This document shows, in pieces, positions 18,926-20,769 of a stretch of DNA of 64,000 bases; position 1 is the first letter of the stretch, and every line of letters begins with the position of its first letter. The DNA is from Acidobacteriota bacterium (GTDB lineage Bacteria > Acidobacteriota > UBA6911 > RPQK01 > JAJDTT01): NCBI GenBank assembly GCA_028874215.1, contig JAPPLF010000087.1, forward strand, positions 1 to 64,000, written 5' to 3'. Made by a program: the position numbers and the translations under genes. Below the pieces are notes generated by a model. It was given only the letters and a program-made list of their open reading frames with translations, had not been told where the DNA came from and searched no databases.

Positions 18926-19855
18926 ATGGATCCCTGTCCCATCTGTCGAGGTCTTGGCTGGGATCACTTCTGCTCCGTTCCGGACCGGCTCCGAAAGATC
19001 ACGGACCAGAGCTGGGAAATCTACCGTTGCCGCTCCTGCGGTTTTGGCCGGACCGAGCCCGCGCCGGGTGAGCAGGACCTCATGGCATTCTACCCTCCCG
19101 GGTACTGGGGAGACGTGGTCAAGACGGTGGAGCAGTTTCGGTCCGGACAACTCGTGTCGGCCCGTTCCTGGCGCCAGGAGGCCGAAAAGGTCCGCTTGCT
19201 GGAACGCTACTTGCGGGAAGGGTCCGTGCTGGATGTGGGTTGCGGGGACGGCAAGTTCCTCTGGGGTCTGGATTCCGGCCGCTGGCGGCGGACCGGGGTC
19301 GAACCCTCGCGGCGAGTGGTCCAACTGGTCCGCGAGCGGATTCCGGGCATCGATTTCGTAGTCGGGGACCTGTACTCGACTCGTCTGCCGCCGGGTTCCT
19401 TCGACGCCATCACGTTCTGGCACGTGCTGGAGCACATTCCGGAGCCGAGGCGAGTGATGCGCCGGGTCCGGGATCTGCTGCGGCCCGGGGGCTGGCTCAT
19501 CGTCTCGCTGCCCAATCTGAGCAGCTTGCAGGCCCGAATTTTTCGCCGGCACTGGTATGCGTTCGATGACGTCCCCCGCCACCTGTTCCACTACTCTCCG
19601 CGCTCTCTGGCGCTGCTTTTGAAACAGGAGGGATTCGAGGTCAGGGATCAGCTCGGTTTTTCCAGGATCATCGGGTTTCACTGCCTGAAGCACAGCCTGG
19701 TCAACTGGTCGGAAAGCCTCTTCGGCTCCCGGGCGCCCTACTATTCGCTGAAGCCGATCCTGCCCCTGTGCGCTCTTCTGGAACGAGTGGTGCGGCGCTC
19801 CGGAATCATGACTCTGGTCGCCCGGACTCCTGGCCGTCCGCGGCCGGGGCCTTAA
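18926..19855 (+). CDS. Class I SAM-dependent methyltransferase with N-terminal zinc-ribbon
   Basis: A 309-residue protein. The first ~40 residues contain CPIC and CRSC pairs, a zinc-ribbon-like module, followed by the SAM-binding motif SVLDVGCGDGKFLW and the post-motif HVLEHIPEPRRVMRRVR of Methyltransf_23 proteins. The C-terminal ~90 residues, with FDDVPRHLFHYSPRSL, are typical of methyltransferases in cell-surface polysaccharide or lipid clusters, but no such cluster is here. The ATG at 18926 has AGGAAA at good spacing and places CPIC at residue 3; an in-frame ATG 18 codons earlier lacks a ribosome-binding site. The TAA stop touches the TIR element. Confidence 0.8.
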   Translation: MDPCPICRGLGWDHFCSVPDRLRKITDQSWEIYRCRSCGFGRTEPAPGEQDLMAFYPPGYWGDVVKTVEQFRSGQLVSARSWRQEAEKVRLLERYLREGSVLDVGCGDGKFLWGLDSGRWRRTGVEPSRRVVQLVRERIPGIDFVVGDLYSTRLPPGSFDAITFWHVLEHIPEPRRVMRRVRDLLRPGGWLIVSLPNLSSLQARIFRRHWYAFDDVPRHLFHYSPRSLALLLKQEGFEVRDQLGFSRIIGFHCLKHSLVNWSESLFGSRAPYYSLKPILPLCALLERVVRRSGIMTLVARTPGRPRPGP

Positions 19856-20128
19856 TCCGCATTTCTCACCAGGCCGCTAAGACGTGAGGAAAAAGAACCT
19901 GTTTTTGAACATTTGCGCCAATTTTTCCAAAGTTCCTCTGGGACAGACTGCGCTGGGCGCGCGCTCGCTGGTCTTTTCGCCCTCAGCGCGCACATGCTCC
20001 CTCAAACGTAGTCACCACTACGCTCTCAGTCGCGAGCACGCGGGGATGATGAAGAGTCGGCGGCTAAAAGCCGCCGCTCCGGCGAAAATCCTGCGCGATC
20101 GTCACGCCCCCTGGTGAGAAATGCGGAT
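19855..20128. mobile_element. MITE-like element with 19-bp terminal inverted repeats
   Basis: The sequence ATCCGCATTTCTCACCAGG at 19855-19873 is the perfect reverse complement of 20110-20128, bounding a 274-bp segment. Inside are a perfect hairpin CGTAGT-CACC-ACTACG near 20009-20024 and another at 20059-20075. No transposase or convincing gene is present, although a 77-codon frame is open. The left repeat begins in the stop codon of the methyltransferase, and the right end is 44 nt before the ECF sigma ATG. Size, terminal repeats and lack of coding fit a non-autonomous element, but no clear target duplication is visible. This accounts for the 317-nt gap between genes. Confidence 0.55.
20059..20075. 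repeat. Palindromic hairpin inside the TIR element
   Basis: GGCGGCT-AAA-AGCCGCC, a perfect 7-bp stem with a triloop. Read on the minus strand it becomes GGAGCGGCGGCTTTTAGCC, which resembles the hairpins that follow the stop codons of the UxaC-like, recA and M20 peptidase genes. Confidence 0.55.
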
Positions 20129-20132
20129 GAAG

Positions 20133-20172: not shown

Positions 20173-20769
20173 ATGGAGAAGACCGATGCCGAGTTGGTCA
20201 TCGCGAGCCTCGAGGGCGCGCCATATGCGTTCGAGCAGATCGTCCAGCGTTACGAGCGGCTGGTCTTCAGCATCATCTACCATCAATTGGGCCGGCGGCG
20301 GGAAGTGGAGGACGTGGCTCAGGATGTCTTCCTCAAGGTCTTCAACTCCCTGGGCCGATTTGATCGCCGCCGCCCCTTGAAGGCCTGGATCGCCAAGATC
20401 ACGGTCAACCAATGCCGCGACGTATTGAGAAAGCGACGGAGTTCCAGGGTGGAGGCGTTTTCCAACTTCACCGAGGAAGAGGAGAGGAGAATCCAGTCCC
20501 TTCACGACGTTTCCGCCGGCACCGCCGCCATGACGGAGGCGGAATCCAGAGCCTGCCTCAAGCTCCTGGACCGGCTCGTGCGCCGCTTGTCTCACAAGGA
20601 CCGGACTGCATTCCTGCTCAGGGAGGTGGAGGGATTCGGATATGATGAGGTCTCCAAGGCCCTGGGAAGCAGCCAGGTGGCGGCTCGAATCCGAGTCAGC
20701 CGCACGCGCAAGCGGCTGCTTGCGGCGCTTTCTCAAGTCCTTTCCGGCGGAGCAACCTTGAAACCATGA
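20173..20769 (+). CDS. ECF-family RNA polymerase sigma factor
   Basis: A 198-residue sigma-70 protein with region 2 (YERLVFSIIYHQLGRRREVEDVAQDVFLK is split around the core-binding helix) and region 4 (LREVEGFGYDEVSKALGSS then VAARIRVSRTRKRL, the -35-binding helix-turn-helix), without regions 1 and 3. This is the ECF type that redirects RNA polymerase to stress or envelope genes. Its stop overlaps the next gene's start by 4 nt. The next gene has a zinc-binding anti-sigma motif and a membrane helix, so the pair is probably a membrane-signalled switch. An upstream TGAAAC-N16-CGTA promoter suggests autoregulation. Confidence 0.9.
   Translation: MEKTDAELVIASLEGAPYAFEQIVQRYERLVFSIIYHQLGRRREVEDVAQDVFLKVFNSLGRFDRRRPLKAWIAKITVNQCRDVLRKRRSSRVEAFSNFTEEEERRIQSLHDVSAGTAAMTEAESRACLKLLDRLVRRLSHKDRTAFLLREVEGFGYDEVSKALGSSQVAARIRVSRTRKRLLAALSQVLSGGATLKP

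Follow-up and report, generated by a model that had tools for sequence, protein, structure and literature searches.

A lineage-specific MITE with IS1380-like ends and an interior hairpin whose fold is conserved between distant bacteria

Results

The element and its insertion site

The window, as we call the whole stretch of 64,000 nucleotides of Acidobacteriota DNA analysed here, contains a methyltransferase gene (PF13489) followed by a gene for an ECF-type sigma factor (PF04542 and PF08281; TIGR02937 above cut-off). Between the two, a first-pass annotation had placed a 274-bp, MITE-like element with perfect 19-bp terminal inverted repeats (TIRs). The repeats are as described, 19855-19873 (ATCCGCATTTCTCACCAGG) being the exact reverse complement of 20110-20128, and with one mismatch tolerated the arms extend to 23 nt at 96% (19851-19873 and 20110-20132); no second inverted-repeat pair was reported between 19600 and 20400. 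The pair is not a product of chance: for the arm's 17-nt core, at up to three mismatches, 0.24 occurrences would be expected in the window and five are present, a number that none of 100 shuffles reached. The proposed limits had to be corrected: other copies set the ends at 19856-20127, making the element 272 bp long, and comparison with these copies puts TTAA before it and TGAA after it (Table 1).

The annotation had further reported that the element begins in a stop codon and that a sigma gene lies beyond its right end. Both statements agree with our analysis, as the TAA within the left TTAA closes the methyltransferase ORF at 19855, and the sigma ORF starts at 20173. A transposase was rightly said to be absent, since 272 bp, or the 240 bp of a typical copy, is too short for such a gene. 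Two perfect interior hairpins, CGTAG-6-CTACG and GGCGGCT-AAA-AGCCGCC, are present as well; the first forms the tip of the conserved core described below, and the second is part of a REP-like replacement.

Table 1. Parts of the window element, and loci of a second core subtype found elsewhere
Feature	Position	Strand	Basis or remark
Left target-duplication copy, TTAA	19852-19855		supplies the TAA stop of the upstream methyltransferase ORF
Left TIR, TCCGCATTTCTCACCAGG (family consensus CCCGCATTTCTCACCAGG)	19856-19873	+	inverted-repeat search, copy alignment
Fast-evolving subterminal domain, about 82 nt	19874-19954	+	75% mean identity among 17 genus copies
Structured core hairpin	19955-20109	-	covariance model R1, E 2.7e-10 (33 loci plus window), 8.8e-9 genome-wide
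REP-like hairpin, 38 nt, GGAGCGGCGGCTTTTAGCCGCCGA on the minus strand	20043-20080		replaces CTGAG of the 240-bp form
Right TIR	20110-20127	-	inverted-repeat search, copy alignment
Right target-duplication copy, TGAA	20128-20131		copy alignment, relatives' empty sites
Second-subtype core loci	L217 1509-1609, L206 1326-1426, L219 3229-3329, L177 3748-3836		

When the flanks were joined without the element and used as a query (564 long), an empty orthologous site was found in all three genus relatives, with gap-free matches across the junction at 96% in G003, 89% in G002 and 89% in G001 (matched stretches 1-564, 1-564 and 2-564). The empty junction reads ..CC TGAA GTGAAACAG in two relatives and ..CC GAAGTGAAACA (CC-GAAGTG) in the third, so that the target position is TGAA or CGAA, and the occupied junction in the window reads ..CC TTAA, then the element, then TGAA GTGAAACAG. 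The tetranucleotide was therefore duplicated and one of its copies has since changed. In two of the three relatives the methyltransferase frame extends about a dozen residues past the site (..EVKQSPERYVL and ..EVKQRPERDVL), and hence the insertion has shortened the C-terminus of the protein relative to these two; it is through this truncation of the methyltransferase tail that the element begins in a stop codon. In the third relative a TAA stands directly ahead of the insertion site. The comparison is that of window positions 19801-19855 with L384 and L386. With respect to the three relatives, the element inserted at a TGAA/TTAA site behind the methyltransferase gene in this lineage only.

Copies in the genome and the genus

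A search of the genome to which the window belongs gave 16 matches, ten of which are element loci (L001-L010) that are near-complete, internally deleted or reduced to end fragments; the remainder are the REP-like hairpin alone (L011-L014) and the window's own two ends. At the DNA level, matches occur in 4 of 100 related genomes, namely in all four members of the genus, our own genome included, and the other 96 gave no DNA-level match to the element. The common form measures 240 bp, and forms of about 120-130 bp, which keep both ends and differ in their internal deletions, are frequent. The exact end pattern had 0 matches in the viral contigs searched, and a blastn search of plasmids with two elements as queries found no match.

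Within this family, the window copy is an atypical derivative. It shares with only one other aligned copy, L002, the 38 nt with the REP-like hairpin in place of CTGAG, which interrupt one arm of the core and leave it partly broken; because of this replacement the core takes up 155 nt in the window, compared to 122 nt in the 240-bp form. The REP-like hairpin GGAGCGGCGGCTTTCTAGCCGCCGA also recurs alone in the genome, at L011-L014. Three further loci of the genome (L024, L037 and L041) retain only a remnant of one end, next to a CTAG-type flank, and probably date from older insertions; in the 82-nt domain of some copies a promoter-like pattern, TTGAGA..AATACA, can be made out by eye on the plus strand.

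The element is thus multicopy, bounded by TIRs and a tetranucleotide duplication, without room for a transposase and missing from the orthologous site in three of three relatives, all of which bears out a non-autonomous, MITE-like nature. The first-pass annotation had named as its counter-case a single-copy repeat with an interior conserved as an RNA gene. The first half of this does not apply; the second does in part, as the interior contains a core that is conserved as a strand-specific fold. The MITE reading is therefore supported, but it is incomplete given the conserved folded core.

Ends, targets and candidate transposases

The family terminal repeat, CCCGCATTTCTCACCAGG, and the 4-bp YTAR targets are like those of insertion sequences of the IS1380 family, which are piggyBac-like. 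We surveyed 60 elements with their flanks (25 from the genus, 35 from elsewhere), 45 of them with both ends present. Identical 4-mers flank 24 of the 45, compared to a mean of 13.7 and a maximum of 21 in 2000 shuffles of partners, and no more than one base separates the two 4-mers in 40 of the 45. The prevailing 4-mers are CTAG, TTAA and TTAG. IS1380 ends are flanked by CTAG, TTAG or TTAA, the same YTAR-type target as that of the MITEs.

A candidate transposase for the same ends, which the annotation had suggested looking for, is found with IS1380 elements of other genomes and not in the genome of the window (G000), where PF13701 (IS1380) has no match. The relatives G001, G002 and G003 hold some PF13701 matches, and IS1380 copies in relatives have ends of the same kind, for example CTAA followed by CCCGCATTTCTCACACTA in L103. 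The IS1380 element at L275 has the end CCCGCATTTCTCACCAGA behind CTAG, and its two ends share 17 and 16 of 18 bases with those of the MITE. At L271, where CTAG precedes CCCGCATTTCTCACCACT and the other end is ..TCACAAGA, 16 of 18 bases agree at both ends; this locus has an intact ORF of 480 aa, the matched stretch of which scores 400 bits with the NCBIfam IS1380 transposase model (cut-off 180). MITE-like ends also occur on the IS1380 elements L276, L294 and L365, and in G589 a MITE with another end, CCCGAATGTTTCATAAATT, has its counterpart in an IS1380 fragment with the end CCCGAATTTTTCATAAAA.

Scanning the genome collection with YTARCCCGCATTTCTCACCAGG yielded at least 120 stretches, mostly from Gammaproteobacteria; other carriers among the matches listed are Acidobacteria, Planctomycetota, Verrucomicrobia and Alphaproteobacteria. 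The analysis covered 80 of these loci (L150-L229) and left out L230-L269. PF13701 was matched at E 0.001 in 12 of 25 genomes with such stretches, and above the cut-off in 11; the corresponding numbers for 27 further core-bearing genomes are seven and three. The transposase partner is often absent, then, but many of these genomes are draft bins, which assemble insertion sequences poorly, and copies may be hidden. Another possible reason for the scarcity of PF13701 among carriers is that some of the elements are moved by other enzymes.

IS701, the target of which is YTAR, was considered as a partner and rejected: PF13546 (DDE_5) has 0 matches in G000, and IS1380 fits better. Our literature search found no paper joining IS701 with YTAR. 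Two further elements deserve mention. G002 has about seven near-identical copies of an IS1380-like element of 2.0 kb (L130 and L131); its frame measures 527 aa, and its ends, CCCGGATTATTCAT, are unlike those of the window MITE. In G011, an element of about 175 bp with the ends CCCGGATTTCTCATGGGT lies beside an IS1380 frame (L112 890-1064); it is a further MITE of the order and has no core match.

A core hairpin conserved in its fold

Distant taxa contain elements that have the same ends and measure 238-244 bp. Their sequences are unlike one another, but they share one architecture: a TIR of 18, a core of 122, a variable domain of 82 and a TIR of 18. Read on the minus strand of the window, the 122-nt core folds into one long imperfect hairpin. 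The covariance model R1, built from 12 cores with the window copy left out, recovers that copy both among 33 loci plus the window and genome-wide (Table 1).

In an alignment of 40 cores, which leans towards structure because it was fitted to the model, and which draws 29 of its cores from loci found by R1 in the gammaproteobacterial class (some of these genomes possibly being training genomes under another handle), 91.7% of 1510 cells pair and 36 of 38 pairs have changed on both sides. The covariation score of this alignment is 0.722, against 0.221 after shuffling and 0.07-0.12 with one side slid. A hand alignment of 33 rows with 27 distinct cores, from which L180 and L225 were omitted for their indels and L067 for its different frame, gave, for the minus strand, 623 cells with Watson-Crick pairs, 52 with G.T, 1 with A.C and 17 of other kinds, the cells not being independent, as related copies share changes. 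The model-fitted alignment A4 has a weaker asymmetry, with 92 G.T against 27 A.C and with slid controls ranging from 125:166 to 226:123. Of three internal loops with tandem GA/GA, two are preserved in 25 of the 27 cores each and one in 23. The large excess of G.U or G.T over A.C on one strand indicates that it is a folded single strand, and not a duplex, that is under selection; the core is selected as one folded strand, RNA or single-stranded DNA, corresponding to the minus strand of the window.

Conservation is concentrated in the same part of the element. Among 17 genus copies (L067 and L136 omitted) the core has a mean identity of 93% and the neighbouring 82-nt domain one of 75%, and in 135 of 136 pairs identity is higher in the core than in that domain; in eight gammaproteobacterial copies the values are 94% and 71%. 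Between L001 and L002, 170 of 172 positions are identical in the core half and 79% in the rest, a pattern suggesting that gene conversion between copies adds to the conservation of the core. Searches against Rfam 15 left the core unmatched in the window, in eight other loci and in nine more; weak Rfam matches in those nine loci adjoin the core, the nearest being L396 109-207.

Distribution and variety of ends

At E 1e-4, R1 detects the core in 6 of 396 genomes of the phylum, these being the four genus members, G064 and G275. In the gammaproteobacterial class of G100, a genome that supplied R1 training cores, it is detected in 40 of 369 genomes, G100 included, many of them multicopy; copy numbers per genome are lower bounds, because scoring was limited to nine candidates in each. 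The core is conserved across Acidobacteria and Gammaproteobacteria.

Most cores lie between IS1380-like ends of differing sequence (CCCGCATATTGCACCAGG, CCCTCATATCTCACCAGG, CCCGGATATTGCACCAAGG, CCCGAATGTTTCATAAATT and others). Ends that are not IS1380-like also enclose it: TGGCCTGTAT.. in three elements of about 167 bp with CTAG flanks in G064, two of which are identical over 167 bp; GGGTCGCTGRCC.. and GGGTCGCTG.. in G708; GGGCCTC.. in Thiodiazotropha (L217 4509-4630); and GGGCTGGAGCCGTCAA.. in G275 (L311). No core was found inside the IS1380 loci tested (33 loci plus the window), the sole match, at L274, being a neighbouring element.

Some loci depart from this pattern. In G275, a predicted core without recognisable terminal repeats overlaps the start of an ORF that reads as RuvA-like from its sequence (L304 1501-1615) and may be a domesticated leader. 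In G708, the core-bearing elements L387-L391 have at least two kinds of ends and adjoin hairpins of terminator-like form that carry T runs. Thiodiazotropha and other gammaproteobacteria have a second core subtype, which the model matches over about 90-101 nt and which follows GGATTTGG.TTTT (Table 1).

Gene context

By a simple longest-ORF rule, 59 of 60 elements lie outside predicted ORFs, and some predicted ORFs end within the target, at the very edge of the element. Where the neighbouring genes are co-directional, the core strand is sense in 15 elements and antisense in 14, and thus without bias; in the window it is antisense to both neighbours. These counts do not favour a role in read-through mRNA for each copy. 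Since the core abuts the TIR in most copies, leaving no room for a promoter, an RNA from the core would need read-through from outside.

Discussion

Taken together, we consider it probable that the window contains a lineage-specific MITE, mobilised in trans by IS1380, with an interior hairpin that is selected as one strand and acts as RNA. For the movement, the matching ends and targets make IS1380 the most likely agent: a bacterial, piggyBac-related transposase of the IS1380 family would act in trans on the CCCGCATTTCTCACCAGG ends and duplicate a YTAR tetranucleotide. For the core, the most likely role is that of a structured RNA helping MITEs to persist or spread. The element would be transcribed through from a flanking promoter, and the hairpin would fold as RNA into a protein-binding or processing-resistant stem that aids persistence or spread. 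If only occasional, well-transcribed copies seed new insertions, no orientation bias would be expected among copies.

Strand-specific folding and covariation fit single-stranded DNA as well as they fit RNA. It is conceivable that the strand, exposed in replication or transfer, folds and is bound by the transposase or a host protein, which would time or direct transposition; the lack of a gene-orientation bias is compatible with this, as is the lack of promoter space upstream of the core on its own strand, given that the core starts at the TIR in most copies. We know, however, of no need for a folded strand in DDE transposition of the IS1380/piggyBac type, and the core also occurs between ends that are not IS1380-like, so that unrelated enzymes would all have to use one and the same transposase-specific signal in single-stranded DNA. 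We regard this alternative as unlikely, albeit the strongest of the competitors.

Less plausible still is a terminator or stabiliser of mRNA 3' ends, a hairpin brought to gene ends by a YTAR target that contains TAA or TAG. The near-complete restriction of the elements to DNA outside predicted ORFs (59 of 60), the several junctions at which a predicted ORF stops exactly at the element, in the target, and the G708 copies next to terminator-like hairpins with T runs are in line with such a function; yet the copies read have no T run behind the core, strand-asymmetric pairing would not result from a device that works on both strands, and termination has no need of conserved tandem G.A loops. A plain MITE, an IS deletion derivative whose passive interior owes its conservation to recent spread and gene conversion, would account for the multiple copies, the TIRs, the target duplication, the empty sites and the internally deleted forms of about 120-130 bp that retain both ends, but is very improbable and, for the core, already contradicted by compensatory changes at 36 of 38 pairs in 40 cores, by the occurrence of one core within different TIRs, by the recurrence of the 18+122+82+18 geometry in distant taxa and by the tested IS1380 loci, which, one adjacent element excepted, have no internal core.

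Returning to the core as a folded strand that serves the MITE, a wider interpretation is that it constitutes a mobile, structured nucleic-acid module, which has been joined to the ends of several unrelated transposon families and whose folded strand, probably RNA, aids the spread or persistence of MITEs across phyla. We put this forward tentatively, as a possibility of somewhat less than even weight; if true, the module would correspond in kind to SINE-like selfish RNAs, with the difference that this bacterial form is moved as DNA. The window copy is an atypical and partly broken member, and the family with its core is the main finding. The shape of its hairpin, rather than the letters, is common to similar elements in distant bacteria, which suggests that the hairpin has a function. 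MITEs are usually regarded as passive deletion leftovers; a core shape that is conserved across phyla and reused with different ends points to selection on MITE interiors, and the idea that bacterial MITEs spread by means of an RNA (or single-stranded DNA) device of their own becomes open to testing. The covariance model, moreover, can find many unannotated intergenic repeats.

The accessible portions of the literature on IS1380, MITEs, non-autonomous repeats and conserved structure or covariation, including those of PMC10969869, PMC3281130, PMC4133298, PMC2267715 and PMC10813416, hold no description recognisable as this MITE family, and the search found none of a conserved hairpin in non-autonomous transposons. 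Relationships to several known systems are nevertheless apparent. piggyBac has TTAA targets and CCC.. ends, and IS1380 transposases have been used as its outgroup, according to PMC10813416; the window family has the ends starting with CCC and the TTAA-like 4-bp targets of the IS1380/piggyBac group, and 16-17 of 18 end bases match IS1380 copies in related or co-resident genomes. Unlike IS1380, it is a MITE without a transposase, and none of the IS1380 loci tested has its folded core in the interior. The Correia/NEMIS, ERIC and QMITE repeats are short, TIR-bounded, intergenic MITEs with stable stem-loops that act on mRNA, as described in a review (PMC10969869) that does not mention IS1380. The window family is equally short, intergenic, TIR-bounded and stem-loop-forming, but has a separate core inside its TIRs, which covaries across phyla. 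REP/BIME palindromes, which are moved by RAYT (Y1) transposases, also consist of strand-specific hairpins in intergenic DNA, and the window copy itself contains a REP-like hairpin; the core differs from them in its length of 122 nt and its location within TIR-bounded elements with 4-bp duplications. Finally, the attC sites of integrons, which carry RYYYAAC/GTTRRRY boxes, are, like the core, long imperfect hairpins folded from one strand, whereas copies of the window family stand singly between TIRs.
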